Origin: Acidobacteriaceae bacterium
GTDB lineage: Bacteria; Acidobacteriota; Terriglobia; Terriglobales; Acidobacteriaceae
Direction: 5' to 3'
DNA: 64,000 bases
Assembly: GCA_021323655.1 (NCBI GenBank)
Contig: JAJPKO010000026.1
Span: 1 to 64,000 of the forward strand
Position 1 is the first letter of the stretch. Each line of letters starts with the position of its first letter. Made by a program: the position numbers and the translations under genes. Below, piece by piece: positions 25,590 through 42,198 of the stretch. The notes below the pieces were generated by a model. It did no database searches. It worked only from the letters and a program-made list of their open reading frames with translations, and had not been told where the DNA came from.

Positions 25590-26206
25590 AAACTTGCTGC
25601 GAAAATTGCATGCAAACTTACAGAAGGCATGAATCCATTCCAGGGATCATGCCTTCCGCAAAACGATCGAACTGCCCCTATGGAAAATTTCTGTCAAGAT
25701 CCTCCAAACCCATTTCCGCTCTAAATTATACAAAATAAAGAGTTTAATTCGTCAACAGGACGGCCGGTTATTTATGACCCATTTGCTATCCTGAACATAA
25801 GGGCTAAGTTTTTGAGAAGCGCCCGCGCAATGCAGACGCTTTCTTCAGATCCCCTCGTAAGTGATTGAAAACACTAGGTTGAATCTAAGTCTTTTGTAAT
25901 CAAAAGGATAGCGGGGGATGATCCCCCGCTAAGTCATTGAAAATAAAGGAAACCCTCCGCAACGGGGGAGGGGGCCCCCTCAGAGTTCCCTCCCCCAGAA
26001 CTGCGTCTCAGTCGAAAGTGCCTGGAAAAAACAGCTTTGCTGAAAACTGCAACTGCCTCGCACCATACAGAGGACTGCTGGTCGAAGTGGGAGTTCCGAT
26101 GGGAGCAATACAGCCTCCCGTAATCGCGCTGCTCGAATCACTCTGGCAGACACCTGCCTTCCCCGCAGTCAGCAGGGAGAATCCCGTTGTGCTCACAGCC
26201 TGGTTG
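25590..26206. other. Intergenic region before the DppC-type permease
   Basis: 617 bp. Near its start an imperfect hairpin, GAAGGCATGA (25623-25632) / TCATGCCTTC (25647-25656), may follow luxR. Most of the rest is repeat copy 1. The frame upstream of the permease is open back to a TTG at 25937 inside the repeat, but this stretch has no family resemblance and is probably not translated. Confidence 0.5.
25680..25980 (+). repeat. ~300-bp dispersed repeat, copy 1
   Basis: Aligns over its whole length with the reverse complement of 41901-42198. Shared blocks in order: TGGAAAA, CTGTCAAG, CCCATTTC, ACAAAATAAAG, CCGGTTATTTATG, TATCCTGAA, GCTAAGTTTT, CGTAAG, TGAAAACACTAGG, TTTGTAATCAAAA, GATGATCCCCCGCTAAGT, TTGAAAATAAAGG, and a terminal G-run/C-run palindrome (GAGGGGGCCCCCTC, 25968-25981). 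It contains a perfect hairpin AGCGGGGGA-TGA-TCCCCCGCT (25910-25930). No protein is encoded and no terminal inverted repeats are evident. It starts 91 bp after the luxR stop and ends ahead of the permease gene. Confidence 0.88.
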
Positions 26207-27088
26207 ATGCATGGGTGCTATTTGCTACCCTTTTCTTTGGCCGACTTTTCCATTAGACACCCCTTCCGCCGTCAGCCTCTGGCGATGATTGGCGCACTCC
26301 TGCTTGTTCTGTTTGTTGGAATCGCCCTGTTTGCTCCCTGGATTTCCCCGTTCAATCCTGCAGCGATTGACCTGAATCACCGCCTGGTACGGCCTGACCA
26401 TATCCATTGGTTCGGCACGGATGAGTTAGGGCGGGACATCTTCTCCCGAACGCTTTACGGTGCAAGACTTTCGCTGCTGGTGGCTACATCCGTGGTGGCC
26501 TGCTCGCTCTTTCTTGGACTCATCTTCGGTGGCCTCGCTGGATATTACGGTGGCGCTGTTGATACGGCGCTGAATACTTTCCTGATGAACGCGTTCCTGG
26601 CCTTACCGGGAATTCTGTTGGCCATAGCATTTGTTGCGTTTCTTGGGCCTGGAATTATCAACCTGGTCCTGGCACTCTCAATTGGCGGATGGGTCGGCTA
26701 TGCGCGGCTAGTACGCGCGCAGGTGTTGGCCGCGCGTGAGCGCGAGTTTGTAGAAGCAGCCAGAGCGTTGGGGGCAAGCGATCTGCGCATCTTTGTGCGG
26801 CACATCTTGCCCAACATCATGCAGCCAGTCATTGTGCAGGCGGCCATTGGCATGGCGGGGGCCGTGTTGGCCGAAGCCACACTCAGCTTTCTGGGACTCG
26901 GCGTGCCTCCGCCGGCTGCAAGCTGGGGCGCGATGCTGAACGATGCGCGGTCACATCTGTTTGACGCACCGCATCTGGTGGTCTTTCCTGCAATTGCAGT
27001 GATGCTCTGCGTGCTCTCGTTTAATTTTCTCGGAGACGCTCTGCGAGACTATCTCGACCCCAGAACGCGCATGAGCGTGGGCCTCTAA
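26207..27088 (+). CDS. DppC/OppC-type peptide/nickel ABC transporter permease (orphan)
   Basis: Second permease subunit of a dipeptide/oligopeptide-type ABC importer, 293 residues from ATG 26207. It shows the family N-terminal helix (MIGALLLVLFVGIALFAPWISPFNP), HWFGTDELGRDIFSRTLYGARLSL, and the EAA loop contacting the ATPase (EFVEAARALGASDLRIFVRHILPN), ending GDALRDYLDPR. The start is uncertain: no ribosome site precedes any candidate, and TTG at SLADFSIRHPF is possible. The partner permease (DppB), ATPases and binding protein are all absent nearby. Repeat copy 1 lies just upstream, so the gene may be a rearranged remnant of a larger operon. Tail-to-tail overlap with the MFS gene. Confidence 0.82.
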   Translation: MHGCYLLPFSLADFSIRHPFRRQPLAMIGALLLVLFVGIALFAPWISPFNPAAIDLNHRLVRPDHIHWFGTDELGRDIFSRTLYGARLSLLVATSVVACSLFLGLIFGGLAGYYGGAVDTALNTFLMNAFLALPGILLAIAFVAFLGPGIINLVLALSIGGWVGYARLVRAQVLAAREREFVEAARALGASDLRIFVRHILPNIMQPVIVQAAIGMAGAVLAEATLSFLGLGVPPPAASWGAMLNDARSHLFDAPHLVVFPAIAVMLCVLSFNFLGDALRDYLDPRTRMSVGL

Positions 27089-28332
27089 GTTTTGCTTTCA
27101 GGCAACAATGGCGCGAAGCGCGAGCCGATGAAAAGTACCGCGGATGCGACGCCTAAAGCAATCAATGTCACACCCATCCCGGCACGCAGTGAGGATGTGG
27201 CGTCGGAAACCCGGCCAATCAGCCGTGGAGAAAAGGCATCGCCAAGCGCGTGAATCATAAAAAGATTGATGGCAATGGCAGAAGATCGGATAGAAGCAGA
27301 CACAGAATTGACTAGGCAGGCGTTCAGAGGGCCATTGTTCAGAAAGAGCAGCAACTCCGCAATCAGCGCTCCGGGCACGAGCCATGAGTGAGGACCGAAG
27401 ATCGTTGCGGCGCAAGCCGGTATCGCTGCAGCCATACTGCACGCTGAAATCAAATAGAGCGCACGATGGTTCCTGCGCACCCAGCGATGACCGGCCCATC
27501 CGCCAACAATGGTTCCGACCAGGCCATCCACTGCCGTGATGGCTCCGGTAACGATTCCTGCGGCGGCGACGGTGTATCCGCCAAAACGAACGAAAAAGGT
27601 TGGCAAAAATGTAGAAATTCCTCCGACGGCAAACGTCCACATGGCCATGCCAAGGGTAGCGGTCCAGAAAGCAGGATTCCGCACGAGTCCGCTCAGGGTG
27701 GCGCGGTCAAAGGTGGGCTTAAGTTCATCGCTTGCTCCACGCGGCGGTTCCTTTACAAAGAACCAGAAGGCGGCTGCGATCAGCACTCCGGGCAGAGCGG
27801 CAATAAAGAAGGGCACGCGCCAACCGTAATGCTGACCTAACACACCTCCGGAAAGATATCCGAGGGCTGCGCCAACTGGAATGGTGATGTAGAAGATGCT
27901 GAGGACGCGGTTGCGGTCAACTTCCGGATAAAAATCGGAAAGCAGCGCGGGCGCGAAAATGCTGAAAGTTGCTTCCCCGATGCCCACAAGTGCGTGGCGA
28001 ATCAAAAGCGTCTCATAACTATGGACAGTCGCGGTAAGGAGAGTAGCAGCGCTCCAGATAAGCGCTCCAGCAACGATCAGTGGACGGCGAGGAAAGCGGT
28101 CTCCCAGCCATCCCGTGAGCGGAGCAGCGATCATGTAGGTAAAGAAGAAGGCCGACGTCAACAACCCGATTTGCGCATCATTGGCCGAAAACTCTTTTTG
28201 GATGAGCGGCTGCACGCCCGGTAGTACGTAGCGGTCAATAAAGTTAAACAGGTTCAGGCAAGTCAGCAGGAAGAGGGCCATGCCTGCGGTCTGCGCAGTG
28301 GTGGCTCGTCCGGTTTGCTGAAGGGCCTTCAT
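27085..28332 (-). CDS. Spinster-like MFS transporter
   Basis: 415 residues, twelve hydrophobic segments. N-terminal LLTCLNLFNFIDRYVLPGVQPLIQKEF followed by GLLTSAFFFTYMIAAPLTGWLGDRFPRRP is the hallmark of the spinster-like branch of the major facilitator superfamily (NFIDR in TM1, GxLxDRxPRR in loop 2-3). The final segment ends GSRFAPLLPE. Start ATG 28332 begins MKALQQTG; the in-frame extension upstream would overlap queF and is unlikely. Bacterial members often carry small organic acids or sugars, but the substrate here is not inferable. It is 50 bp downstream of queF, possibly co-transcribed. Confidence 0.85.
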   Translation of the reverse strand: MKALQQTGRATTAQTAGMALFLLTCLNLFNFIDRYVLPGVQPLIQKEFSANDAQIGLLTSAFFFTYMIAAPLTGWLGDRFPRRPLIVAGALIWSAATLLTATVHSYETLLIRHALVGIGEATFSIFAPALLSDFYPEVDRNRVLSIFYITIPVGAALGYLSGGVLGQHYGWRVPFFIAALPGVLIAAAFWFFVKEPPRGASDELKPTFDRATLSGLVRNPAFWTATLGMAMWTFAVGGISTFLPTFFVRFGGYTVAAAGIVTGAITAVDGLVGTIVGGWAGHRWVRRNHRALYLISACSMAAAIPACAATIFGPHSWLVPGALIAELLLFLNNGPLNACLVNSVSASIRSSAIAINLFMIHALGDAFSPRLIGRVSDATSSLRAGMGVTLIALGVASAVLFIGSRFAPLLPESKT

Positions 28333-28382
28333 GCAATGACGGCAGGATATTAGGACGACAGGACATAGACCGCAGTATTCAC

Positions 28383-28781
28383 TTATTCTCTGGGCCGGGG
28401 CCAGCGTGCTTCTACTGTAGTGGAGATTCCGCCACGCGGCCGAAATTCGCCTTTTACGACGGCCCACACCGGATTACAGGACTTCACAACATCTTCGAGC
28501 ACCTGATTCACAACGTTTTCCTGAAAGATCCCGAGATTACGGTAGCAGAAGAGATACTCTTTGTACGATTTCAGTTCCAGACAAAGGTCACGCGGCATGT
28601 AGCGCAGAGTAATCACTCCGAAGTCAGGTAACCCCGTCTTAGGGCAAACTGAAGTGAACTCGGGATCGTCAATCACAATTTCGTACGCGGGAAACTGGTT
28701 CTTCCATGTCTCGATCTCAGGGAATTTGGTATCGAGTCCCGCTTTTGCATGCTCATCAGTGTAACGCTCGGAAAGGGCCAT
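28383..28781 (-). CDS. queF: NADPH-dependent 7-cyano-7-deazaguanine reductase QueF
   Basis: Reduces preQ0 to preQ1 in queuosine synthesis (cytosolic, T-fold family). At 132 residues it is the single-domain YkvM type. The covalent-catalysis cysteine is in FTSVCPKTGLPDFG, followed by the QueF NADPH motif region ELKSYKEYLFCYRNLGIFQENVVN; the usual C-terminal RGGISTTVEARW is present. Other que genes are not in the window, and no preQ1-type riboswitch was recognised in the 87-bp upstream region, which it shares divergently with the HlyD gene. Confidence 0.95.
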   Translation of the reverse strand: MALSERYTDEHAKAGLDTKFPEIETWKNQFPAYEIVIDDPEFTSVCPKTGLPDFGVITLRYMPRDLCLELKSYKEYLFCYRNLGIFQENVVNQVLEDVVKSCNPVWAVVKGEFRPRGGISTTVEARWPRPRE

Positions 28782-28868
28782 GTTTCTATTTTAGAGCACG
28801 ATGTGCAGAACATATTTCTGCCACCAATCCGCATCTTATTGAGTCTTATATACTGACCTCTGTTACGG

Positions 28869-30113
28869 ATGGCAACGCAACGAACAGCACCGACCCGCAA
28901 TGGCTGGATATGGACAGGCGTAGTGATTGCGCTTCTGCTGGTGTTCTATATTGCGCACCGCCTTACGCGCACCACGCTTCCTGTGCGCGCAGCGACCGTG
29001 GTGCGCAGCAGCCTTAAGAGCACCACCAGTACGAATGGTGTGGTTGAACCCGTTTCTAATTTTGAGGCCACCGCCCCGTTTCCGGGTGTTGTAAAAGGAC
29101 TCTATGTGCATGAGGGCGATCAGGTCCCGGCCGGAAAATTGTTGCTTTCAATGGATGATGCCGATGCGCGGGCCAAACTGGCCACTGCTCTGGCAAATCT
29201 CAAAGGAGCACAGGCGGCTTATGATGCGACGGTAAAAGGCGGCACACAGGAAGAACTGCTATCGCTCAATGGGCAAATCCAATCGGCCATACTGGATCGC
29301 GAACAGGCCCAGAACAGTCTGGCCACCCTGGAAAAACTCCAGATGCAGGGTGCGGCGTCGGCCTCCGAGGTGGCCGCAGCAAAAGACCGCCTGATTGCAG
29401 CCAACAATTCTTTGGGTGTGCTTGAGAAGAAAAAGACATCACGCTATGGATCACCCGATGTGGCCCATGCAAAGGCATCCCTGGAAGACGCGCAGGCCGC
29501 ATATGCTGCAGCGCAGCAATCCGTCAATCAGGCAAACGTAAAAGCGCCGTTTGCAGGAACGGTCTACTCGATCCCTGTTTCCAGAACAGAGTTTGTAGAG
29601 CAGGGTAAGACCCTTTTGGAAATGGCAGACCTGGACAAGCTTCAGGTGCGTGCCTATTTTGATGAGCCAGAAATTGGCCGGTTGAGAGAAGGCATGCCGG
29701 TTACGATCACGTGGGATGCCAGGCCCAATCTGGAATGGCATGGACATATTGAGCGTGTACCTTCCACCATTATTCGCTACCAGACCACGCGTAACGTCGG
29801 CCAGGCAGTCATAGCCATGGATCACACAGATGGCGTGCTGTTGCCTAATACCAACGTGACCGTGACAGTTATAATCTCTGATTCGACAAATGCACTGAAT
29901 GTCCCCCGAGATGCACTGCATACGGAGCAAGGCAGGTTTTACGTCTATCGCATTGCAGATGGCGTGCTTCGCCGCACCGAAGTGAAAACAGGTGCGTCCA
30001 ACCTTACACAAATAGAAATTCTCTCCGGACTGAATGAAGGCGACAGTGTCGCGCTGGGAACCACCAACGGCCAGCCGCTCAGCGACGGCGCCTCAGTCAG
30101 TGTTGTGCGATAA
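28869..30113 (+). CDS. HlyD-family periplasmic adaptor (membrane fusion protein)
   Basis: 414 residues. N-terminal membrane anchor (WIWTGVVIALLLVFYIAHRL), biotinyl-lipoyl-like half-motif (GVVKGLYVHEGDQVPAGKLLLSMDD), a long coiled-coil hairpin (~90-220, Ala/Gln-rich with heptads), the second lipoyl half (KAPFAGTVYSIPVSRTEFVEQGKTLLEMADL) and C-terminal beta-barrel/MP domains (LPNTNVTVTVIIS, VPRDALHTEQGRFYVYRI). It would bridge an inner-membrane pump to TolC. First of a tight three-gene set with a TPR protein and a TolC homologue; no pump gene is beside them. Confidence 0.9.
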   Translation: MATQRTAPTRNGWIWTGVVIALLLVFYIAHRLTRTTLPVRAATVVRSSLKSTTSTNGVVEPVSNFEATAPFPGVVKGLYVHEGDQVPAGKLLLSMDDADARAKLATALANLKGAQAAYDATVKGGTQEELLSLNGQIQSAILDREQAQNSLATLEKLQMQGAASASEVAAAKDRLIAANNSLGVLEKKKTSRYGSPDVAHAKASLEDAQAAYAAAQQSVNQANVKAPFAGTVYSIPVSRTEFVEQGKTLLEMADLDKLQVRAYFDEPEIGRLREGMPVTITWDARPNLEWHGHIERVPSTIIRYQTTRNVGQAVIAMDHTDGVLLPNTNVTVTVIISDSTNALNVPRDALHTEQGRFYVYRIADGVLRRTEVKTGASNLTQIEILSGLNEGDSVALGTTNGQPLSDGASVSVVR

Positions 30114-31082
30114 ATGAAACCAATTTGCCGCATCCTGCAGTTCAGTTTCCTGTTGTGCGCCATGGTGACAGCGCATGCTGATGTGCTCGACTCTGTGCGC
30201 GGCGACCTGGAGCATGGCCGCGCAAATCAGGCGCTGGACACCTTAAGTCAGGTGTTGGCACAGCAACCCCAAAACGCCGAAGCCTATAACCTGCAATGCC
30301 GTATCTACATGCAGGAAGAACGCTGGGACAACGCCGTGGATGCCTGTAAAGCCGCAGTCAGGCTCGTACCGGGCAGCAGCAATTACCACCTGTGGCTGGG
30401 CCGTGCTCTCGGTGAAAAGGCAGACCGGGTCAGTTTTATTACTGCATTTAAGCTGGCGCGGCAGGTGCGGCAGGAATTTGGGACTGCTGCCAGACTTGAC
30501 CCACATAACGCGGATACACTGTCTGATCTCGGCGAGTTTTATGTAGATGCTCCTGCAATCGTAGGCGGCGGATTCGATAAGGCCGGTGTAGTCGCGCAGC
30601 AGTTAGATGGCTTTGCACCTGATCGAGCTCACTACATACGCGCTCGGATCGCCGAAGGCCAGAAGGACTACGCTACTGCAGAACAGGAGTACAAAGCAGC
30701 CATCTCAGGCGCGAAATACCCTGGCGATGCATGGATGGATCTTGCCTCCTTTTATCGTCGCAGGCAACGCTGGGATGACATGGTACAGGCGGTGCGGTCT
30801 GGTTCCGCAACGGACACAAAACACGGTGTTGCACTCGCTGATGGTGCTTCCGTTCTGATTCGGGCCCAACGCGATCTGCCACTCGCGCGTCAGTTGATGG
30901 AGCAGTACCTGGCCTCTCCTAATAAATCAGAAGAGGCCCCGGCCTTCCGTGTGCACGTGCAGCTTGGTAAACTGCTGGCCGCTCTCGGCAATAAGCAGGG
31001 CGCGCAGCAGCAGATTGCGGCGGCACAGGAACTCGCGCGAGATTACCAACCAGCTACACAGGCCACCAACAGCGGCAGGTGA
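30114..31082 (+). CDS. Exported TPR-repeat protein in efflux operon
   Basis: 322 residues. Signal peptide (FSFLLCAMVTAHA) then about six tetratricopeptide repeats, e.g. LEHGRANQALDTLSQVLAQQPQNAEAYNLQCRIY and WDNAVDACKAAVRLVPGSSNYHLWLGRAL, with a middle insert DLGEFYVDAPAIVGGGFDKA. The ATG follows the TAA of the HlyD gene with no gap, so translation is coupled. A periplasmic scaffold role for the export complex is inferred from context only. Confidence 0.8.
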   Translation: MKPICRILQFSFLLCAMVTAHADVLDSVRGDLEHGRANQALDTLSQVLAQQPQNAEAYNLQCRIYMQEERWDNAVDACKAAVRLVPGSSNYHLWLGRALGEKADRVSFITAFKLARQVRQEFGTAARLDPHNADTLSDLGEFYVDAPAIVGGGFDKAGVVAQQLDGFAPDRAHYIRARIAEGQKDYATAEQEYKAAISGAKYPGDAWMDLASFYRRRQRWDDMVQAVRSGSATDTKHGVALADGASVLIRAQRDLPLARQLMEQYLASPNKSEEAPAFRVHVQLGKLLAALGNKQGAQQQIAAAQELARDYQPATQATNSGR

Positions 31083-31120
31083 GCGGATAAAATCGGAGTT
31101 TGCAACACTTGCGAGGGTAA

Positions 31121-32434
31121 TTGCGGTTGAAATGCTTACAAGCCGGATGGTTGGCCTTGGGGCTTTCATTGGCCCCCATCCGGGCCTCAGCCCAGATTTC
31201 GCTCTATACGGTAGTGGATCTTGCTTTGCGCAACAGCGCATCGGTTCGCATGGCACAGGCAAACGTGGTGCGTGCAGCCGCCGGTCTGGCTGAAGCGAAG
31301 GACGCTTATATACCGAGCTTCCAGTTCGGCGTTGAGCCAGGATATTCCTATGGATTTCCTTTGGGGCAGCCTTCAATTTTTAACTTTCAGTCCCAGTCGC
31401 TGCTCTTCTCTTTTTCGCAGCCTTATTACATCCGCTCTGCTCGCGCAGCATTGCAGGCCGCGCAATACAACCTGCAGGATAGCCGCGAGCAGGTCGTGCT
31501 CGACTCTGCACTGCACTACATTGAGCTCGACAAGACCGTGAAAGAGATCAACGCCCTGGAGCAGGAAAAGCAGTTCGCAGACAAACTCGTCTCTATTGAA
31601 CAAGACCGGGTCATCGCCGGTGTGGACAATCGCTCGGAAGTACTTCGCGCAGAGCTTGTGGCCGCGCAGGTTGATTTAAAGGAAATCCATCTTCGCCAGG
31701 CCGCTCGTCTTCTCAGAGAACAGCTCTCTCACCTGACTGGATTGCCTGCCGACAGCTTTGTGACAGAGAGCGGAAGCATTCCTGCCCCGCCGGACCTCCG
31801 CTCAGCGGAAAATCTCCTGCGCGCGGTAGTGACAAACAATCCGGGACTGCTTGCGGCGTCAGCCAACGCCAAGTCAAAGGCATACCTTGCCTTTGGAGAT
31901 GAGCGGCAGAATTACCGCCCACAATTTGCTCTGGGCGCAGAATACAGCCGCTTCGCAAAGTTCAATAATTACCAGGAATATTACAGCCACTTCCAGCACA
32001 ATAACTTCGGTATTGCGGTCCAGATCACGATTCCGCTTTTTGATGCCAGCAGGCGATCCAAAGCTAAAGGATCGGAAGCGGACGCTACCCATGCGCGGGC
32101 ACAGGCAGACCAGGACCGGGACGCCGCCCAGGAGCAGGTCCTTCAATTACAGGGCAGCCTCGAAGAGCTGGCCGCCCAGCGACGAGTTGCCCAATTGCAG
32201 GCAGAGCTGGCAGAGGAGCAGTTGAATGCGATCAGCACTCAGCTGCAAAGCGCAAACGGTTCCGCAAACGGTCCGGCCCTGACTCCGAAGGATGAACAGA
32301 AGGCTCACATTGAGGAGCGGGAGCGCTATGAAGATGTCCTGGACGCGGATTTTTCTGTTATCCGCACCGAATTGAGCCTGCTCCGCTCTATCGGAGCTGT
32401 CGAAGATTGGGCGAAAACCGGCCCGCAAAAGTAA
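31121..32434 (+). CDS. TolC-family outer-membrane efflux protein
   Basis: 437 residues, OEP/TolC family. Signal peptide (LQAGWLALGLSLAPIRASA), then two repeats of paired long helices: LYTVVDLALRNSASVRMAQANVVRAAAGLAEAKD, and AENLLRAVVTNNPGLLAASANAKSKAYLAFGDERQNYRPQ. Beta-strand insertions such as FQFGVEPGYSYGFPLG and ALGAEYSRF would form the barrel. The start is a TTG at 31121 with GAGGG four to five bases upstream. It is 38 bp after the TPR gene and is the outer-membrane exit duct of this set. Confidence 0.88.
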   Translation: MRLKCLQAGWLALGLSLAPIRASAQISLYTVVDLALRNSASVRMAQANVVRAAAGLAEAKDAYIPSFQFGVEPGYSYGFPLGQPSIFNFQSQSLLFSFSQPYYIRSARAALQAAQYNLQDSREQVVLDSALHYIELDKTVKEINALEQEKQFADKLVSIEQDRVIAGVDNRSEVLRAELVAAQVDLKEIHLRQAARLLREQLSHLTGLPADSFVTESGSIPAPPDLRSAENLLRAVVTNNPGLLAASANAKSKAYLAFGDERQNYRPQFALGAEYSRFAKFNNYQEYYSHFQHNNFGIAVQITIPLFDASRRSKAKGSEADATHARAQADQDRDAAQEQVLQLQGSLEELAAQRRVAQLQAELAEEQLNAISTQLQSANGSANGPALTPKDEQKAHIEERERYEDVLDADFSVIRTELSLLRSIGAVEDWAKTGPQK

Positions 32435-32520
32435 GTGAATCAATGCATTGTGGGCAGTCGCTGCAAAAGCACCTTTTCGACAGGGAAACCTTCGCCGGAT
32501 GTTACACTTAAGAGGACGTC

Positions 32521-33996
32521 ATGCCCTTAAAAACACTGTTTCTGAACCCGCCCTCGTTCGCGAATTTTGATGGTGGCGCCAGTTCGCGCTGGCCTGCCAC
32601 GCGTGAGATTGAGTCGTACTGGTATCCAGTGTGGCTTGCCTATCCGGCAGGGATGCTCGAAAGCTCGCGGTTGCTGGATGCACCGCCCCATCACATCTCG
32701 GCGCAGGAAACCATTGAGATTGCGAAAGGCTATGAGTTTCTCGTACTATTCACCAGCACCCCGGGCTGGACGGGCGACCAGAAACTCGCCGAAGCCATCA
32801 AGCGGGCCAACCCTTCGATCCGCATCGCATTTGTCGGACCTCCGGTGACGACCTCACCCGACCGCGCATTGAAAGAATGCGAAGTGATTGATTTTGTCTG
32901 CCGCCGCGAATTTGACTACTCGGTGGTGGAATACGCGAACGGCAAGCCGCTCGACGAAATTCTGGGCATCAGCTACCGCAAAGACGGGAAAGTCGTCCAC
33001 AATCCGGACCGCCCGCAGGTTGAAAACCTGGACGCGATGCCATGGGTAACGGACGTCTACGCGCGCGATCTCGACGTAACGAAATACAATGTGCCCTTCC
33101 TGCTGCATCCGTATGTTTCGCTTTACTCCACTCGCGGATGCCCGGCACAATGCACCTTCTGCCTCTGGCCGCAGACCCTTTCCGGTCATGCCTGGCGAAA
33201 GCGTTCCACTGATGACGTCGCGGCGGAAATGGCACATGCCAGAGAACTCTTCCCGCATGTGAAGGAGTTTTTCTTTGATGACGATACGTTCAACATCCAG
33301 AAGGCGCGAACCATCGAGCTTTGCTCCAAGTTGAAGCCGCTCGGGTTGACCTGGTCCTGCACTTCGCGCGTCACGACAGACCGCGAAACACTGAAGGCCA
33401 TGCGTGAAGCCGGATGCCGTCTGCTGATCGTCGGCTATGAGTCCGGCGACCCTCAGATACTCAAGAACATCAAGAAGGGTGCAACCGTGGAACGGGCCCG
33501 CGATTTTACACGCGATTGCCACGACCTCGGCCTGACCATCCACGGTGACTTCATTCTTGGTCTGCCCGGGGAAACGAAGGAGTCCATTCGCAATACCATC
33601 AATTTTGCGAAAGGCCTGGATGTGGAAACCATTCAGGTGTCCATTGCCCACGCGTATCCCGGAACGGAATTCTACGAGTTCGCAAAGGAACATGGCTTCA
33701 TCATCAACAACGGGCAGATGGTGGACGACCAGGGCCATCAGCTCGCGCATATTGAATATCCTGGCTTGCCAAAGGAATACGTACTCGAGATGGTGCACCG
33801 CTTCTATGACGAGTATTATTTCCGTCCAAAGGCGGCATGGCGCGTTGTCAGCAAGGCCATTGTGAACCGCGATCTGCCCCGCCTCTATCAAGAGGCAAAG
33901 TCGTTCCTGAAATTGCGTGCGCAGCGTAATAAGATCGTTAAGGAAAGCAAGCAGCAGAAATCGAACGAGTCGCAACCTGTAAGCGCGGAAGTTTAA
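32521..33996 (+). CDS. hpnJ: Hopanoid biosynthesis radical SAM protein HpnJ
   Basis: 491 residues: N-terminal B12-binding-like domain (TLFLNPPSFANFDGGASSR; LVLFTSTPGWTGDQKLAEAIK) and radical SAM barrel with the cluster motif CPAQCTFC (CxxxCxxC), then GYESGDPQILKNIKKG and HGDFILGLPGETKESI. The opening NPPSF.NFDGGAS and WYP.WLAYPAGML are characteristic of HpnJ, which family work links to formation of the cyclitol-ether head group of C35 hopanoids. Squalene-hopene cyclase and other hpn genes are not in the window. Two small membrane proteins follow on the same strand. Confidence 0.92.
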   Translation: MPLKTLFLNPPSFANFDGGASSRWPATREIESYWYPVWLAYPAGMLESSRLLDAPPHHISAQETIEIAKGYEFLVLFTSTPGWTGDQKLAEAIKRANPSIRIAFVGPPVTTSPDRALKECEVIDFVCRREFDYSVVEYANGKPLDEILGISYRKDGKVVHNPDRPQVENLDAMPWVTDVYARDLDVTKYNVPFLLHPYVSLYSTRGCPAQCTFCLWPQTLSGHAWRKRSTDDVAAEMAHARELFPHVKEFFFDDDTFNIQKARTIELCSKLKPLGLTWSCTSRVTTDRETLKAMREAGCRLLIVGYESGDPQILKNIKKGATVERARDFTRDCHDLGLTIHGDFILGLPGETKESIRNTINFAKGLDVETIQVSIAHAYPGTEFYEFAKEHGFIINNGQMVDDQGHQLAHIEYPGLPKEYVLEMVHRFYDEYYFRPKAAWRVVSKAIVNRDLPRLYQEAKSFLKLRAQRNKIVKESKQQKSNESQPVSAEV

Positions 33997-34012
33997 GAAT
34001 ATGGCTCTTTTG

Positions 34013-34040: not shown

Positions 34041-34112
34041 TTCCACTCCCATTCAAGGAATAACCCGCATCGTTGGAAGATGTGGGCTCTTTCTTTCATG
34101 ACGCGAAGCACA

Positions 34113-34547: not shown

Positions 34548-34939
34548 CAGTTGCTCATCATGTCGGGCTGGCGAATGCCGCAATGATTGCGAGCATCATT
34601 GTCGCGGCCACAACGGGAGACGTTCTGATCGCATCAGCCATGCGCCAGATTGGCGACCTAGATGAGATCAAGGCCCACTCGGGGTTGAAGGGTGCCATTG
34701 TGGCCGTCCTTACCAATGCCCGCTTTTTTAGTGGTGTCGCCGCTATGGCGGTCAGCTTCTTCTCCTTACTTTTTGCGCTCAGTCATGCGGACTTGAGCCT
34801 TGTTGCCCCGGCTTCAGCCTCTCTTACGGTAGTGACCAACACCATCGCCGCAAAGTTTTTTTTGAAAGAGAATGTAGATAAGCGCCGCTGGATTGCCGCT
34901 GCGTGTGTCTGCGCAGGGGTTGTTCTGCTGGCGCATTAA
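34538..34939 (+). CDS. Small 4-TM DMT/EamA-type protein, second of a pair
   Basis: 133 residues, four hydrophobic helices (AAMIASIIVAATTGDVLIASAM; FFSGVAAMAVSFFSLLFALSHA; LSLVAPASASLTVVTNTIAAKFF; WIAAACVCAGVVLLAH) and the motif ADLSLVAPASAS...FLKENVDKRRW, parallel to WADLTYVLPVTS...WRHENISLSRW in its partner. So the two are diverged paralogues with the same topology plan. Its ATG lies inside the upstream gene (ten-base overlap), implying coupled, stoichiometric synthesis. Confidence 0.75.
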   Translation: MPVTVAHHVGLANAAMIASIIVAATTGDVLIASAMRQIGDLDEIKAHSGLKGAIVAVLTNARFFSGVAAMAVSFFSLLFALSHADLSLVAPASASLTVVTNTIAAKFFLKENVDKRRWIAAACVCAGVVLLAH

Positions 34940-34952
34940 GAAGCATCGGCTT

Positions 34953-36686
34953 TCAATATCCGGCAGCTTTCCCATAATGGTGCCGATGGTCTTGCCCTCC
35001 TTCGATGTCGCCCGTCTCGGGGTCTACTGCGATGCATTCGCCATCACTCCAATGACCTTTGCTGACTTTAATCTGATAGCCCATGGATCGCAATGCATCT
35101 ACAGTAGCGTCAGGAAAACCTGGTTCAAGATAGAGAACGTCGGGCAGATACTGATGATGAAAGCGTGGCGCATCTACTGCTTCCTGGATATTCAGCCCCT
35201 GGTCCGCCACGCTCAGGAAGATGTTGGCTACCGTGGTGATAATGCGTCCACCGCCCGGCGAACCGAGCACCATGGCTACTTTTCCATCCTTGAGCACGAT
35301 AGTGGGCGTCATGCTGGAGAGCGGACGCTTACCCGGAGCGATGGAGTTTGCCGGCCCCTGAATCAATCCGAACATGTTCGGCTTGCCTTGCTTGGAGGCG
35401 AAGTCATCCATCTCATCATTCAGCAGGAATCCGAGCCCCTTCGCTGTCACGTAAGAACCGAAGCTGTTATTGAGAGTGGTGGTCACGGCGACAGCGTTGC
35501 CGTCTGCGTCCATAACGGAGTAGTGTGTGGTCTGCGGTGATTCATGCCGCACCTCGCTCATAGTTGGCGGAGGCGGCACGAGCCCGGCTGGGCGTTTCAG
35601 GTCGGTCGACGGCGTTGACTGGTCTTCCTGAATACTGGCGCGCCATACCGCGGCGTATTTCTTGTCTATGAGTTGCTCGACTGGGATCTTCACGTAGTCG
35701 GGGTCGCCGAGATAGTCAGAGCGATCCATGTACGCGCGGCGAAATGCCTCAGTAATCAGGTGCATCTCTGGCGCGGTGCGGTCGCCAAAGCGCTTGAGGT
35801 TATAGCCTTCAAGAATGTTAAGAGTTTCGAGCAGCGCGACTCCTCCTGATGATGGCGGCGGAGCAGAGATGACAGTGTAGTCCCTGTAAGTACCCTCGAG
35901 CGGGTCACGCTCTTTCACTTCGTAGCTGGCCAGGTCCTTTTCGGTAAGAAGGCCGCCGCCTTTCTGGATGTCCGCAGCCAGCTGCTTTGCAATTTCTCCA
36001 TGGTAGAAGTCGTCCGGATCTTTCGCGATACGGCGCAATGTTGCCGCCAATTCTGGTTGCTTGAAGAGTTCTCCCGTGTGGTAGTAATTGCCATCGCGCT
36101 GAAAAACATGCTTTGATTCCGGAAATTCAGCAAGGCCGGACTCATGGAGCTCGTCTGCCTCTTCTTCTGAAAGGACAAAGCCATCGGATGCAAGCCGGAT
36201 CGCAGGTTCCATCACTTTCGCCAGGGTCAGCTTGCCGTACTTCTTCTCGGCGTAAGCCATTCCCGCAACCGAGCCGGGAACGCCGATGGCCTTATACCCC
36301 ACAATGCTCATGTTCGGAATGACATTCCCTTCGCCGTCGAGATACATATTGACGGAAGCGGCCAGCGGCGCCCTCTCGCGATAATCCAAAAAGGTGGATT
36401 TTCCATCATGGAGATGAATAAGCATGAAACCGCCGCCGCCAATATTGCCTGCAATGGGATGCACAACGGCCAGAGCGAAGCCGGTTGCCACAGCAGCATC
36501 CACGGCATTACCGCCCTCTTTCAGTATCTCGACACCCGCATCAGTTGCCAGATGATGAACACTGACCACCATGGCATGCTTTGTCCGGGCCGGCGTCTCA
36601 TGCGGCGCAGGTTGGACAGGCTGGGCTTGTAACGAAAAAGAACAGAGACAGACAATTGCAGAAAAGACAAAGGCGCGTTGAATCAT
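34953..36686 (-). CDS. ggt: Gamma-glutamyltransferase
   Basis: Cleaves the gamma-glutamyl bond of glutathione and related peptides in the periplasm; an Ntn-hydrolase that self-processes. 577 residues, the usual length. Signal peptide (AFVFSAIVCLCSFSLQA), large-subunit start VVSVHHLATDAGVEILKEGGNAVDAA, and the maturation site TTHYSVMDADGNAVAVTTTLN, whose second Thr would be the nucleophile. The small subunit includes SSMTPTIVLKDGKVAMVLGSPGG. Divergent from the biotin carboxylase gene, with only 38 bp between the starts. Confidence 0.95.
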   Translation of the reverse strand: MIQRAFVFSAIVCLCSFSLQAQPVQPAPHETPARTKHAMVVSVHHLATDAGVEILKEGGNAVDAAVATGFALAVVHPIAGNIGGGGFMLIHLHDGKSTFLDYRERAPLAASVNMYLDGEGNVIPNMSIVGYKAIGVPGSVAGMAYAEKKYGKLTLAKVMEPAIRLASDGFVLSEEEADELHESGLAEFPESKHVFQRDGNYYHTGELFKQPELAATLRRIAKDPDDFYHGEIAKQLAADIQKGGGLLTEKDLASYEVKERDPLEGTYRDYTVISAPPPSSGGVALLETLNILEGYNLKRFGDRTAPEMHLITEAFRRAYMDRSDYLGDPDYVKIPVEQLIDKKYAAVWRASIQEDQSTPSTDLKRPAGLVPPPPTMSEVRHESPQTTHYSVMDADGNAVAVTTTLNNSFGSYVTAKGLGFLLNDEMDDFASKQGKPNMFGLIQGPANSIAPGKRPLSSMTPTIVLKDGKVAMVLGSPGGGRIITTVANIFLSVADQGLNIQEAVDAPRFHHQYLPDVLYLEPGFPDATVDALRSMGYQIKVSKGHWSDGECIAVDPETGDIEGGQDHRHHYGKAAGY

Positions 36687-36724
36687 GGTTGGCGGTAGTG
36701 TAACGCGATAGAATCCTTTCTGGA

Positions 36725-38233
36725 ATGAGCTTTGGGAAAATCCTGATCGCCAACCGGGGTGAAATTGCTCTGCGTATCATTCGGGCGTGCCGCGAGCTTG
36801 GAATCCGCACGGTTGCCCTCTACTCGGATGCAGATCGCGCAGCACTTCATGTACTGGAAGCCGACGAAGCATACAGGCTCGGGCCCGCTCCTGCAACGGA
36901 ATCATATCTGCGCGGCGATCTGATTCTTGACATAGCGCACAGGACAGAAGCGGATGCGATTCATCCGGGCTACGGTTTTCTCTCTGAAAATGCGGATTTT
37001 GCTGAAGCCTGCGGGAAGGCTGGTGTCAAGTTCATTGGGCCGCCGCCTTCAGCCATGCGCGCACTGGGTTCAAAAACGAGTGCCCGTCAGGTTGCGGATT
37101 CTGTAGGAATGCCGCGTACTCCCGGCTCTGTGAAGGGCCTGGCCTCGCTTGAAGAAGCGCGCACTGTTGCTGCGCAGATTGGCTACCCGGTCATGCTGAA
37201 GGCCGCAGCCGGTGGAGGTGGCAAAGGAATGCGCGCGGTCTTCTCCGCCGATGAGCTGGCCTCGGCGTTTAGCGCTGCATCCAGCGAAGCAGAGCGCGCC
37301 TTTGGTTCGGGTGAAGTCTATCTGGAAAAGCTGATTGAGCGGCCCCGGCATATTGAGATTCAGGTGTTGGCCGACGAGCACGGAAACTGCGTTTCGTTGG
37401 GCGAGCGCGAATGCTCGGTGCAGAGACGACACCAGAAAGTCATTGAGGAAGCGCCATCGGCGGTTGTGGATGAAGACCTGCGCCGCAGGATGGACGAAGC
37501 TGCGGTGCGGCTGGCGAAATCGGCGGGATACACCAATGCGGGCACGGTCGAGTTTTTGGTAGATGAGGCAAAAAATTTTTACTTCCTCGAGATGAACACG
37601 CGCCTTCAGGTGGAACACCCGGTCACAGAGCTTGTAACCGGGCTCGATCTTGTTCACTTGCAGATACATATTGCGCAGGGCGGAAGGCTGCCATTCAGGC
37701 AGGCAGATGTTCGCCTTCGGGGACACGCAATGGAATGCCGCATTTACGCTGAAGACCCTGAGAATGGCTTCTTTCCATCGCCGGGAGAAATTACGCGGTT
37801 GCTTCAGCCGGGAGGACCGGGTATCCGCGAAGACTCTGGCGTGTACGAAGGATGGGTTGTGCCGATGGAATACGATCCGATGCTGTCCAAGCTCATTGCG
37901 TATGCTCCGGACAGGATGCTGGCCGTTCACCGCCTGCTTCGGGCGCTCGATGAATATGTGATTGGCGGCATCCGCTCAAATCTCAATCTGTTTCGCACGA
38001 TCCTGCGCGATCCCGATTTCCAGAAAGCGAACATAGACACAGGATATCTCGACCGTCTGCTTGTTGTGAAAGGCATTGCGCCGGAAACTTCTCCGGAAAG
38101 AGTGGAGATTGCTGCCATTGCTGCCGCTGTGTTTGAGTCCATGCGTTCGACGAGCACTGGCCAGAACCAGCCGACGAACGGGTCGTCCAGCAACTGGAAG
38201 AAGATGGCGCGACGGGAGGCGCTACACGCATGA
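36725..38233 (+). CDS. Biotin carboxylase subunit (acyl-/acetyl-CoA carboxylase type)
   Basis: ATP-dependent carboxylation of biotin on BCCP. 502 residues: N-terminal FGKILIANRGEIALRIIRACRELGI, ATP-grasp with glycine-rich loop KAAAGGGGKGMRA, the signature ECSVQRRHQKVIEEAPS, FLEMNTRLQVEHPVTE and the C-terminal domain (HAMECRIYAEDP). The stop overlaps the start of a BCCP gene. No carboxyltransferase lies adjacent, so whether it serves acetyl-, propionyl- or methylcrotonyl-CoA cannot be said; the closely coupled short BCCP favours an acyl-CoA carboxylase alpha chain split in two rather than the housekeeping accBC pair. Confidence 0.92.
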   Translation: MSFGKILIANRGEIALRIIRACRELGIRTVALYSDADRAALHVLEADEAYRLGPAPATESYLRGDLILDIAHRTEADAIHPGYGFLSENADFAEACGKAGVKFIGPPPSAMRALGSKTSARQVADSVGMPRTPGSVKGLASLEEARTVAAQIGYPVMLKAAAGGGGKGMRAVFSADELASAFSAASSEAERAFGSGEVYLEKLIERPRHIEIQVLADEHGNCVSLGERECSVQRRHQKVIEEAPSAVVDEDLRRRMDEAAVRLAKSAGYTNAGTVEFLVDEAKNFYFLEMNTRLQVEHPVTELVTGLDLVHLQIHIAQGGRLPFRQADVRLRGHAMECRIYAEDPENGFFPSPGEITRLLQPGGPGIREDSGVYEGWVVPMEYDPMLSKLIAYAPDRMLAVHRLLRALDEYVIGGIRSNLNLFRTILRDPDFQKANIDTGYLDRLLVVKGIAPETSPERVEIAAIAAAVFESMRSTSTGQNQPTNGSSSNWKKMARREALHA

Positions 38234-38736
38234 TTCTGCAGCTGGAGATTCACGGCGAATTGCGCCGGATTGAGCTTACGCCTGATAAGTTGCCGAATCG
38301 TTTCCGGGTCGCGCTGAACGATGGAGCGGAGCAGGAGATTGAGGCCCGGCTGCTGCGTCCGGGAGTGCTTTCGCTGCAAATTGCCGGGAAAACCTGTCGC
38401 TGCGTGCTTGAGGAAGGCCCGGAGGGCACGGTGATTCACTTTGCTGGCTCGCGCTTCCCCTATCAGATGGATGATCCGCGATCGCTGAAGTCGCGCCGCA
38501 GCCGTACTGGCGGACACGATGGACCCAAGCCTGTCTCGGCGCCGATGCCGGGAAGAGTGGTTCGGGTCCTCGTCCAAAAAGGAGATGAGGTGCAGGCGCA
38601 GCAAGGCATCATAGTGATTGAAGCCATGAAGATGCAAAACGAGCTGAAATCTCCCAAGGCCGGAAAAATCGCTGGCCTGCGAGTGCAGCCGGGCGGAACT
38701 GTCGCTGCTGGCGAGGTGCTGGCTGTGGTAGAGTAA
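38230..38736 (+). CDS. Biotin carboxyl carrier protein
   Basis: 168 residues. The C-terminal biotinyl domain is complete: APMPGRVVRVLVQKGDEVQAQQGIIVIEAMKMQNELKSPKAGKI, with the biotinylated Lys in EAMKM. The N-terminal ~85 residues are a beta-rich region resembling the linker part of acyl-CoA carboxylase alpha chains. It overlaps the biotin carboxylase stop by four bases (ATGA), so the pair is translationally coupled. Confidence 0.93.
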   Translation: MILQLEIHGELRRIELTPDKLPNRFRVALNDGAEQEIEARLLRPGVLSLQIAGKTCRCVLEEGPEGTVIHFAGSRFPYQMDDPRSLKSRRSRTGGHDGPKPVSAPMPGRVVRVLVQKGDEVQAQQGIIVIEAMKMQNELKSPKAGKIAGLRVQPGGTVAAGEVLAVVE

Positions 38737-38789
38737 CTTTTCCCTCTCGTTTTGCTCGGCAACCTTTTCTGCTCTATATTCAAGACAGG

Positions 38790-39104
38790 ATGCGTGTATT
38801 CCATTTTCATAAGCGCGCGCACGGTTCCTGGGCCAGTTGGCTCGGGGTGTTGTGCATTGCGCTTGTTTTACTGACCGGATTCATTCAGGTCACGCACACG
38901 CATACTTATGGACACGCTGACCATGAAGGCTGCTCCCTCTGCGTTACGGCGCACCATGTGGTGCAGACCGTTGGGCTGGTCATGGTGTCCATCTCCATCC
39001 AACCTGTTCTGCAGCTTGCTCCTGAAAAAGACACGCAGCTGTCGCGCCAGCGATTTTTATTAAAGCTGGCCAACCGTCCTCCGCCCGCGATCCAGAACGC
39101 GTAA
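38790..39104 (+). CDS. Small His/Cys-rich membrane protein upstream of TonB receptor
   Basis: 104 residues. One hydrophobic segment (WLGVLCIALVLLTGFIQV) leads directly into a metal-site-like cluster, THTHTYGHADHEGCSLCVTAHH (two Cys as CxxC with seven surrounding His), then a second hydrophobic stretch (VQTVGLVMVSISIQPVLQLA) and a basic/Pro-rich tail. This recalls small DUF2946-like proteins seen near metal uptake genes, but I would not assign the family firmly. Placement 58 bp before an outer-membrane TonB-dependent receptor suggests a role in metal (for example copper) sensing or relay. Confidence 0.65.
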   Translation: MRVFHFHKRAHGSWASWLGVLCIALVLLTGFIQVTHTHTYGHADHEGCSLCVTAHHVVQTVGLVMVSISIQPVLQLAPEKDTQLSRQRFLLKLANRPPPAIQNA

Positions 39105-39162
39105 ATAGCGTTCTGGCTTTTGCAGGTTTTACAGGGTCAAAAAAATTGCGGAGGTCTTTTCC

Positions 39163-41877
39163 ATGCGCGCATATTTGCGTAGCGTTTTTCTTTCTTCTTT
39201 GCTGCTTGGCATCTCCTCCTTTGGATTTGCGGCGCAGTCTACCAGCAGCTCGGGCACGATTACTGGCACGGTCACTGATCCGACCGGAGCTGTCATTCCG
39301 GGTGCTGCCATCACGATCCACAATGCTGTGAGTGAATATAAGCAGACCGTCAAATCAGACAACGATGGGCATTTTCAATTCACGAATGTGCCGTTCAATC
39401 TTTATCATCTGTCGGTTACAGCTTCCGGGTTCAATGCCTATGCCCAGGACGTGAATGTGCGATCGTCGGTGCCGGTTGCAGTCAATGTGAGCATGCAGGT
39501 GGCGACTGCTTCGAATACCGTCGTGGTCGAGGGTGGAAGCGACCTTCTTGAAACCGACTCCACAATGCATACTGATGTGGATCGAAATCTGATTCAGAAG
39601 CTGCCTCTGGAGAGTGCGACATCTGCCGTCAGCTCACTGATCACCCTTTCCTCTCCGGGAGTCACGGCCGATTCCAACGGAATGTTTCATGGAATGGGAG
39701 ACCACGCGGAGAACTCCTTTTCCGTAGACGGGCAGCCTATTACCGATCAGCAGAGCAAGGTCTTCTCTAATCAGATTCCGTCAGGCTCCATTCAATCCAT
39801 GGAAGTGATTGATGGGGCGCCTCCGGCTGAATACGGAGACAAGACCAGCCTTGTTGTGAAAGTCACGACGCGCTCCGGGCAAGGAGTCAACCGGCCGACA
39901 GGCTCCATCAATACCTCCTATGGAACTTTCGGAACAATCAACAGCGGCTTTGATCTTGCATATGGGAAAAACAACTGGGGCAACTTCATTTCTGCCAATG
40001 GCCTGAATACCAGCCGGTTTCTGGATCCGCCGGAGTTCAAGGTCTTTCATGACAGGGGCAATGAACAGAACATCTTTGATCGAATGGATTATCAGCTTAC
40101 ACAGAATGACTCCATCCATTTGAACCTGAACTATACGCGGTCCTGGTTTCAGACGCCCAATGCCTATGACAATCTGAATGTCTTCGACCAGAACGGCAAC
40201 AGCATAGGCCAGACGGACCAGAAATCGAAGATTGAGACATTCAATATTTCTCCCACGTATACGCGGCTGATCAATGATTATTCGGTCTTTAACTTTGGCG
40301 CGTATGCGCGGAAAGATGCCTACAACTACTTCCCGAGCAGCAATCCTTTTGCCGACCTGGGGCCGATCCAGTCTGAAACCATAGGACAGCGGCGCACACT
40401 CCTGAACACTGGTGCGCACTCGGACATCTCATACGTGAAAGGCGCCCAGAACTTCAAGGCAGGCGCCATTTATGAACAAACGATTCTCCGCGAAAACGAC
40501 ACGCTCGGCATTATCAATCCGGTGCTGAATGCGCCCTGCGTGGATGCAAATGGCAATCCGGTGAAGGGTTTCATGGGCCCGGCAGAGTGTGCGACGGCCG
40601 GATATCTGCCGAATCCCAAATTCAATGATGTGCTGTTGCCGTATGACTTGACGCGCAGCGGCGGACGCTTCGGGTTCCACGGACACACTGATGTAAAACA
40701 GTTGGCGATGTATGCCGAAGACCAGATTACGAAGGGCAATTGGCTCTTCAATGTTGGCATTCGCGGCGATCTTTACAATGGTTTGACCATCGCCCGCGCG
40801 CCGCAGCCACGCGTCGGAATTTCTTACAACATCAAGAAGACGAATACTGTGTTACGCGTGTCCTACGGACGCATGATGGAGACTCCGTTCAATGAGAACC
40901 TGGTGCTTTCCAGCCAGGGATGCGTGAATCCGGTACTCTCTTCGCTTCTTTCCTGCACGCCGGGCGTTTCAGACAAGCTGAACCCTGGCTTCCGCAATGA
41001 ATTTCATGCCGGCCTGCAGCAGGCCTTCGGAAAGGGCTTTGTCATCAGCGGTGAGTATGTATGGAAGTACACGCATAATGCGTATGACTTCAGCGTGCTG
41101 GGGAATACGCCGATTACTTTTCCGATCAATTGGCACAACTCGAAGATTCCGGGCTTGGCATTACGCGCCAACCTGCCCAATTTTCATAACATCAGTGCAT
41201 TTGTCGTAATGTCTTCAGTTTCGGCACGCTTTTTCCCGCCGCAGGTGGGCGGCGCGGGAGCCACCATCGGGCAGAGTGGGTATCCTTTCCGCATTGACCA
41301 TGATGAGCGGTTTAACCAGACCACACACCTGCAATATCAGCTGCCCTGGAGCAAGTTCAAAAACACATGGTTTGGCTTTAACTGGCGTTTTGACAGCGGC
41401 GCTGTGGCCGGTTCGGTACCTTGCTATAACGTGAACGATCCGAACAGCCGGTGTAATCCGCTGAACGGCGGTCCTTCGATCACGCTACCGAATGGGCAGC
41501 CGGGAATTGACCTGAGTGGGCTGACTCCGGACCAGCAGTTCCAGGCAGGGCTTACGTGCGATGGAGTGCGGGCCACACCAACTTCCGGCTTTACAGCCTG
41601 CGATGCCAGGGGCCTGACTTCCACTCTGGTGAAGATCCCTGCTCCGGGAACGGAGAACGATGACAAGAATCCCGCGCGCATCCAGCCGAGGAGCCTGTTT
41701 GATATGGCCATGGGCGATGACAATCTGTTCAACGGGGACCGCTACAAGTGGGGGCTGCGGCTTACCGCAGTCAACGTGACAGACAAGTATGCGCTGTACA
41801 ACTTCCTCTCAACCTTCAGCGGCACGCATTATGTGACGCCGCGAACGGTGACAGGAGAGATCAACTTTTCGTTCTGA
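39163..41877 (+). CDS. Oar-like TonB-dependent receptor with carboxypeptidase-regulatory-like domain
   Basis: 904 residues. Signal peptide (LSSLLLGISSFGFAAQ), N-terminal beta-sandwich (GTITGTVTDPTGAVIPGAAITIHN...GHFQFTNVPFNLYHLSVTASGF), a plug region (NSFSVDGQPITDQQSKVFSNQIPSGSIQSMEVIDGAPPAEYGDKTSLVVKVTTRSG) and a long C-terminal barrel ending in EINFSF with the terminal Phe typical of BAM substrates. This architecture is greatly expanded in Acidobacteria and usually imports glycans or metal chelates. Lacks an obvious N-terminal TonB box in the visible linker. The small His/Cys protein precedes it. Confidence 0.9.
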   Translation: MRAYLRSVFLSSLLLGISSFGFAAQSTSSSGTITGTVTDPTGAVIPGAAITIHNAVSEYKQTVKSDNDGHFQFTNVPFNLYHLSVTASGFNAYAQDVNVRSSVPVAVNVSMQVATASNTVVVEGGSDLLETDSTMHTDVDRNLIQKLPLESATSAVSSLITLSSPGVTADSNGMFHGMGDHAENSFSVDGQPITDQQSKVFSNQIPSGSIQSMEVIDGAPPAEYGDKTSLVVKVTTRSGQGVNRPTGSINTSYGTFGTINSGFDLAYGKNNWGNFISANGLNTSRFLDPPEFKVFHDRGNEQNIFDRMDYQLTQNDSIHLNLNYTRSWFQTPNAYDNLNVFDQNGNSIGQTDQKSKIETFNISPTYTRLINDYSVFNFGAYARKDAYNYFPSSNPFADLGPIQSETIGQRRTLLNTGAHSDISYVKGAQNFKAGAIYEQTILRENDTLGIINPVLNAPCVDANGNPVKGFMGPAECATAGYLPNPKFNDVLLPYDLTRSGGRFGFHGHTDVKQLAMYAEDQITKGNWLFNVGIRGDLYNGLTIARAPQPRVGISYNIKKTNTVLRVSYGRMMETPFNENLVLSSQGCVNPVLSSLLSCTPGVSDKLNPGFRNEFHAGLQQAFGKGFVISGEYVWKYTHNAYDFSVLGNTPITFPINWHNSKIPGLALRANLPNFHNISAFVVMSSVSARFFPPQVGGAGATIGQSGYPFRIDHDERFNQTTHLQYQLPWSKFKNTWFGFNWRFDSGAVAGSVPCYNVNDPNSRCNPLNGGPSITLPNGQPGIDLSGLTPDQQFQAGLTCDGVRATPTSGFTACDARGLTSTLVKIPAPGTENDDKNPARIQPRSLFDMAMGDDNLFNGDRYKWGLRLTAVNVTDKYALYNFLSTFSGTHYVTPRTVTGEINFSF

Positions 41878-41900
41878 GGGTCTGCGCCAAGGGATATGGA

Positions 41901-42198
41901 AGGGGGGTCCCCCCTCCCCTCTGTCCAGGTACCTTCCCTTTATTTTCAACAACTTAGCGGGGGATCATCTCCCGCTATCTTTTTGATTACAAAGTACTTA
42001 AGTTGACCTAGTGTTTTCAGTCGCTTACGAAGGGGGTCTCAACAGCCCCCGTGGCGCTACTCACAAAACTTAGCTCTTAGATTCAGGATATCAAAAGGGC
42101 CATAAATAACCGGCTGCCCTGCAAATAAATTAAAAGCTTTATTTTGTGTTGTTACGTCTGAAATGGGCAAGTAGAAGCTTGACAGGAGTTTTCCACAG
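41901..42198 (-). repeat. ~300-bp dispersed repeat, copy 2 (inverted)
   Basis: Reverse-strand copy of the element at 25680-25980, with the same order of conserved blocks. The internal hairpin has one mismatch in this copy (AGCGGGAGATGATCCCCCGCT), and the end palindrome is AGGGGGG-T-CCCCCCT (41901-41915). The middle section is diverged and about ten bases shorter. It begins 24 bases after the TonB receptor stop. Both copies are intergenic and bracket a 16-kb segment in opposite orientation. Confidence 0.88.

Follow-up and report, generated by a model that had tools for sequence, protein, structure and literature searches.

A 64,000-nt stretch of an Acidobacteriaceae genome (GenBank assembly GCA_021323655.1, contig JAJPKO010000026.1, positions 1 to 64,000 of the forward strand; here called the window) carries a non-coding sequence of ~300 bp in two inverted copies that bracket a 16-kb block, and the question raised by this locus is what kind of sequence this is and with what it works. 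We found that the two copies belong to a composite family of ~27 members with a constant anatomy, that the spacing of its parts follows a comb of ~11 bp, and that it is linked to the gene of a small zinc-finger-like protein, with matching of iteron words to that gene in two lineages. The evidence suggests a previously undescribed pairing of a protein with DNA sites dispersed across the genome, in which the element is probably bound by its cognate zinc-finger protein and serves as a looped promoter or operator.

The copies proved to be homologous and inverted at just the coordinates given in a preliminary description of the window. BLAST aligned them at 77% identity over query positions 2 to 273 (expect value [E] of 2.2e-49), and repeat finding in the window detected two inverted arms in the pair, one of 83 nt (82%) and one of 67 nt (90%). 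Reading of the sequences also bore out the presence of a G-run at the same end of both. Both copies are AT-rich, with a GC content of 45% versus 56% for the window, and both are intergenic and non-coding, as had been proposed: TTG-start reading frames extend into copy 1, but the coding part, which is OppC-like, lies outside it, and the G-run of copy 2 lies 32 bp from the stop codon of a receptor gene (39163 to 41877).

Anatomy and distribution of the element

The sequence had been described as a dispersed repeat with conserved blocks, and a covariance-model search, which the preliminary description had proposed, confirmed this with far more than two copies. When the genome was searched with copy 1, 34 matches were returned, some of them split copies or palindrome matches on the reverse strand. 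R1, a covariance model of the 3' core (138 positions) built from 23 copies, placed the element at 27 sites in its own genome, every match spanning the model and the weakest (L077, 57 bits) being marginal, and it found homologues in other Acidobacteriaceae. Among 200 genomes of the family, R1 was positive in six: the window's own, four of genus g78 (including G134, with 37 matches at 35 places, and G086, with 31 matches at 30 places, one of them weak) and, weakly, G111. R1 found no element in G001, which was the one congener that the searched genomes included. With a broader profile, R2, matches were obtained in 60 of 397 genomes from the order and 15 of 80 genera, most of them weak; all of the listed genomes belong to this family. 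A sample of the phylum gave R2 matches in 9 of 297 genomes, of which 8 are from this family and the remaining one, a weak match, is from outside. Compared by eye, distant copies keep much of the layout and differ in their iteron words.

The element is composite, and in alignments its parts follow one another in a fixed order over ~300 bp: a promoter-like module, a variable stretch, a core of three iterons and a palindrome, and the G-run. In the window's own genome the 5' module comprises TGTGGAAAA, (C/T)TGTCAAG, ~60 nt with an A/T tract, GGCCGGTTATTTCC..CAATTTG and an extended −10-like site, TGnTATCCTGAA; where TGTCAA and the −10-like site were both found, the former lies ~90 to 96 nt upstream of the latter. 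The variable stretch between module and core often holds a GC hairpin and a T-tract, in the manner of a terminator. The core runs from GACCCCC through iteron 1 (TAAGTnATTGAAAACACTAG), iteron 2 (TTAACTCnnGCAGAATCAATAAGATAGC), the palindrome (TAGCGGGGGATnATCCCCCGCTA) and iteron 3 (TAAGTnATTGAAAATAAAGG) to ~10 free bases and GGGGGAGGGGG, the inner palindrome taking up 23 bp of the conserved ~300-bp unit.

A structured RNA family had been one suggestion for such blocks. No match in the window reached the gathering score of Rfam, and a permissive Rfam search of six loci gave two matches, below the gathering score and both in locus L038. The check for compensatory changes gave a similar outcome: RNAalifold proposed 13 weak pairs, one of which showed change on both sides, and in 97 sequences (two rows dropped) the variable positions of the palindrome paired about as often as shuffled ones, with three pairs at z values of 1.9 to 3.0. 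We therefore set aside the RNA family, and, because the variable palindrome positions pair at about the shuffled level, the core is read here as putative protein sites on duplex DNA.

The proposed zinc-finger-like partner and its iteron word

The recurrent neighbor of the element is the gene for a 142-aa protein with the motif CxH-x(7)-C-x(10)-C-x2-H and a helical segment, LED..IQ..RA..LY.LQ, and it starts directly behind the G-run. In the window's own genome, G000, this gene is at C56:69811-70236. This gene for a small CxH-C-CxxH protein has the element as its 5' region, and an R2 match was found 14 to 37 nt before the gene match in all six of the intact close orthologues fetched. Close orthologues (E of 1.5e-52 or better) occur among the 200 family genomes in G000, G134, G175, G086 and G157 only, the next best match having an E of 3.9e-26, and the genomes of the 200 that have strong elements are these same five. 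Since the five represent two lineages, their co-occurrence does not amount to many independent events.

The protein family as a whole was matched in 106 of the 200 genomes. Just upstream of diverged orthologues, and on the same strand, a weak R2 match (E of 0.001 to 0.004 in 66 kb) was present in 3 of 14 cases: G111 (L259), G048 (L267) and G021 (L262). Upstream regions of paralogues were inspected by eye at 16 of 20 loci and at 21 of 23 others; most of those inspected contain several parts of the layout, with other iterons, L307 being ambiguous. In a rule-based count, 29 of 39 paralogues had a G-run in the 130 nt before the gene, compared with 5 of 45 other open reading frames (ORFs) at the same loci.

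If word and protein belong together, a genome in which the gene has its own iteron would be expected to hold scattered elements with that word, and other genomes would not. In G110, three copies of GAAAGACGATTTT stand ahead of the gene, and a search pattern taken from this iteron, AAGACGATTTTN{12,40}GACGATTTT, gave 51 matches at 42 places in that genome, one of them the gene's own, and 19 matches at 17 places in its congener G047. The pattern was absent from six genomes, namely, G143 (same genus), G000, G001, G134, G048 and G050, and the reversed pattern gave 0 matches. The protein itself is present in G110 and G047, and G143 gave no match to it. The layout was seen in the 14 loci examined from the search. 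In both lineages tested, the iteron that stands before the lineage's own gene is also the one in the dispersed copies.

Helical spacing between module and core

Ninety-nine copies from five genomes were taken for measuring how far iteron 1 lies from the −10 module, L077 and L154 having been excluded beforehand. Six copies without a confident module were set aside, as were eight with gaps of at least 125 (among them L093, probably mis-anchored, with a module ~70 nt away in the alignment), which left 85 measured copies. Their gaps cluster near 36, 47, 58, 70, 81, 92 and 104, with a best period of 11.3 bp; 27 copies have gaps of 57 to 60, one has a gap of 50 to 56 and none has a gap of 73 to 79. 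The window's own genome (n = 23) and G134 (n = 29) each did better than all 2000 jittered sets. Because a single narrow peak might cause the periodicity, the gaps of 55 to 63 were removed; the remaining 56 kept the same phase, and 0 of 3000 jittered sets was as good. In the lineage with a different iteron, 17 of 19 loci were measurable, and the gaps were 55 to 57 (14 loci) and 66 to 68 (3 loci), one turn apart. A looped promoter would require the two sites around it to be in helical phase, and such phasing is seen in the window's own genome and in G134 but not significantly in G086 alone. The comb would fit either looped DNA or a nucleoprotein complex with stacked components.

An RNA duplex also has ~11 bp per turn, and a riboregulator has to be weighed at this point: base pairing of GACCCCC with the G-run in the folded, transcribed leader would mask the ribosome site, and the protein would bind RNA. 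CCCC/GGGG pairs do occur in the RNAalifold model, and upstream of the zinc-finger genes the promoter-like module and G-run have the arrangement of a leader. However, there is little covariation and no Rfam family, most copies face the neighboring gene, and the comb is what would be expected for DNA, the spaced region not being one duplex. We consider a riboregulator rather unlikely.

For the protein-bound looped promoter, we infer binding, looping and regulation as follows. The zinc-finger-like protein would bind the iterons, the bound protein and the promoter module (through RNA polymerase or a second protein) would meet on one face of the helix, and the small loop so formed would control the promoter. 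At the protein's own gene this would amount to autoregulation, with the G-run as the ribosome site; scattered copies would be further sites of the same protein, either operators or protein sinks, and a scattered copy with a gene downstream would be the control region of that gene. A looped, autoregulated promoter unit would thus have been copied to many sites and kept there. LacI looping in vivo was fitted at 11.08 to 11.60 bp per turn, according to an excerpt of PMC1762422, and on the same source LacI/AraC-type looped autoregulated promoters are similar in their ~11-bp phasing and in having two sites around a promoter. They differ in that the control unit here is scattered in dozens at unrelated genes, mostly at gene tails, and in that the protein belongs to another family.

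Several observations weigh against this reading. The comb was not significant in G086 by itself (n = 25; p 0.12). Simple ORF calling around 89 copies showed 61 in which the gene on the right points toward the element (19 of 26 in the window's own genome, 22 of 35 in G134 and 20 of 28 in G086) and hence cannot be driven by it; 50 of these 61 genes have their stop codon −20 to 40 nt from the G-run, the left gaps being wider. The sites are therefore mostly not oriented to drive the neighboring gene, as those of an ordinary regulon would be. Some paralogues have no iterons or G-run (G001, both G080 genes and L310), and direct repeats of at least 9 nt, present upstream of 15 of 39 paralogues and 10 of 45 controls, separate the two groups weakly. 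The co-occurrence is based on two lineages (the window's own and g78) plus g39, and dispersed copies with the iteron of the lineage's own gene come from own/g78 and g39 only. Finally, the partner protein has no significant match in Pfam, NCBIfam, PHROGs or PDB, so that its presumed binding of zinc and DNA is taken from the motif; a PDB profile search gave one chance-level match (E of 1.9), and a single-sequence structure model was poor (mean predicted local distance difference test score, 42.7).

A wider proposal, which we put forward tentatively, is that small zinc-finger proteins and 300-bp looped promoter elements form a genome-wide two-part system of a new kind, in which one type per genome has multiplied to ~17 to 42 chromosomal sites and the word has been rewritten between lineages together with the protein, the copies persisting as protein-DNA loops, selfish or co-opted, and not as a regulon, transposon or RNA. 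If this is true, many lineages would each have their own word and protein, a natural experiment in protein-DNA recognition in which dozens of copies per genome reveal the allowed spacings. It would also provide a repeat family whose dedicated partner is no recognized transposase and suggest a function for an unannotated protein family, and the helical comb would make the genome sequences of uncultured or little-studied bacteria a source of evidence on DNA looping in vivo.

Genomic setting and possible mobility

That the two copies could invert the 16-kb segment between them had been one suggestion. Compared with G001, both lie at synteny breaks, but the block is not a unit there: it falls into two pieces joined at 34,941 to 34,952, a further break at which no element was found. 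Among 12 other copies from the window's own genome, 8 could be evaluated, of which 5 were broken (one with its flanks 48 kb apart on the same strand), 1 had 3.4 kb between its flanks and 2 were contiguous and element-free. The proposed comparison of gene order thus placed 7 of 10 evaluable copies at breaks and, as had been looked for, revealed two insertion-free orthologous sites, but no inverted orthologue was seen.

Between G134 and G086, 9 of 35 G134 copies have a right neighbor in common with a G086 copy (at least 75% identity), two of them with a left match as well. Sharing on the left only was seen in none of the G134-G086 pairs listed; there was one left-only match of 70 aa between G134 and G175. 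By eye, the shared right genes look like mnmG, aroA, tRNA nucleotidyltransferase and tgt. Of these nine G134-G086 pairs, selected for the shared right gene, six begin to resemble each other in DNA sequence at +1 to +12 of the core, two at −66 and −163, and one at +208; to the left, similarity returns, with indels, within 10 kb in five pairs. Two copies from the window's own genome share their right gene with g78 at 83% (L063/L122 and L075/L132).

The element might instead be a substrate for recombination by which segments, the 16-kb block among them, are inverted or rearranged. The synteny breaks counted at the 10 evaluable copies would agree with this, as would the shared right and often replaced left sides in G134 and G086. 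The lack of an inverted orthologue, the internal break without an element, the ~25% difference between copies and the presence of 27 copies instead of two make such a role very unlikely.

The same flanks bear on a miniature mobile element, which would be compatible with the looped promoter: the zinc-finger gene together with its element would make up the entire unit, from which the 300-bp copies derive, in the way that repetitive extragenic palindromes (REPs) are related to RAYT genes. We regard this as a serious possibility, a little short of probable. The patchy distribution (R1 in 6 of 200 family genomes and not in the congener), the different sites in related genomes (9 of 35 copies sharing a right neighbor) and the two element-free sites speak for it, whereas no transposase or recombinase is tied to the copies, nearly all model matches are full length and not fragments, and copies common to G134 and G086 keep their blocks. 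Miniature inverted-repeat transposable elements are similar in size, non-coding nature, dispersal and patchy distribution; they differ in that shared copies here stay conserved, the tied gene is no recognized transposase, and terminal inverted repeats and target duplications are not established, the ends having been read by eye in alignments and the two element-free sites being too diverged to fix the boundaries.

Of the earlier label "REP-like," the logic of a dispersed family stands: as with REP/REPIN sequences and RAYT (TnpA-REP), intergenic repeats are dispersed and a dedicated protein gene lies beside a copy. The unit and the enzyme do not agree. REP/REPIN units are palindromes of 20 to 40 bp in an excerpt of PMC3733652, compared with ~300 bp including a promoter-like module and iterons here, and, unlike RAYT, the partner has no Y1 transposase signature in Pfam and, with no significant match of any kind in Pfam, NCBIfam or PHROGs, does not qualify as a cognate Y1/HUH transposase. 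Granulicella aggregans appears in a table of REP counts in part of PMC12306157. No description of this repeat or protein family was found in the open-access literature, which is weak evidence of novelty.

Chromosome-organizing sites, with a protein acting like MatP or ParB, would agree with ~30 sites scattered over the closed chromosome of G134 and with a dedicated protein gene; the G134 positions, judged by eye only, show no clustering or strand bias, and a promoter-like module would be needless, so we think this unlikely. Iteron clusters of plasmid origins likewise combine several spaced direct repeats with an AT-rich stretch and, close by, the gene for a presumed binding protein; the element differs in being chromosomal and present in many copies.

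Positions of the two window copies and their parts
Feature	Position	Strand	Basis
Copy 1, whole element	25680..25980	+	sequence reading, BLAST, core-model match
Copy 1, CTGTCAAG block, 5' module	25691..25698	+	
Copy 1, extended −10-like TATCCT (TTTGCTATCCTGAA)	25787..25792	+	
Copy 1, iteron 1 TAAGTGATTGAAAACACTAG	25858..25877	+	
Copy 1, central palindrome TAGCGGGGGATGATCCCCCGCTA	25909..25931	+	
Copy 1, iteron 3 TAAGTCATTGAAAATAAAGG	25930..25949	+	
Copy 1, G-run GGGGGAGGGGG	25964..25974	+	
Copy 2, whole element	41901..42198	-	sequence reading, BLAST, core-model match
Copy 2, CTGTCAAG block, 5' module	42178..42185	-	
Copy 2, extended −10-like TATCCT	42085..42090	-	
Copy 2, iteron 1 TAAGCGACTGAAAACACTAG	42008..42027	-	
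Copy 2, central palindrome	41955..41977	-	
Copy 2, iteron 3 TAAGTTGTTGAAAATAAAGG	41937..41956	-	
Copy 2, G-run GGGGAGGGGGG	41909..41919	-	

An exact-pattern scan with GTAAGTNRTTGAAAAYACTAG gave 8 genome-contig and 8 viral-contig stretches, of which L039 is a real element and the other fifteen scored no better than an E of 0.2 with R1; by our estimate, a few genome matches would be expected by chance. A two-part pattern scan found nothing in viral contigs. One viral contig (L046:878-970) has GTAAGTCATTGAAAACACTAG and, ~55 nt later, an inverted AGAATCAATGACTTAC beside terminase-like ORFs, words that resemble iterons 1 and 2 of the element. Two contigs of one metagenome-assembled genome of a gp18 acidobacterium (L038 and L042) carry an inverted-repeat element of ~100 bp with the same 21-nt word at its center.

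At L151/L166 (G086:C27:452477), a 198-aa ORF with a signal-peptide-like start lies between promoter module and core, its stop codon touching the core. The idea of cargo or an island, prompted by this ORF and by the varying left flanks, was set aside, as no recombinase is linked to the element in general. By eye, the congener G001 (L183, G001:165280 region) has a tRNA-Gln-like sequence followed by an integrase-like ORF beside the gene that flanks copy 2 in the window, and a RAYT-like ORF with REP-like words GGTAGAAGCACCGGCCTTCAGGCCGGTGAA lies to the left of several g78 copies (e.g., L170, −1122 to −666). Elsewhere in the window, a 1781-aa ORF (14741 to 20086) has internal repeats of ~640 nt (a 61-nt segment five times and a 53-nt segment four times), and two direct 300-nt repeat pairs (60154 to 60789 and 63285 to 63920), 72 to 76% alike and 3131 nt apart, are probably tandem paralogous genes.

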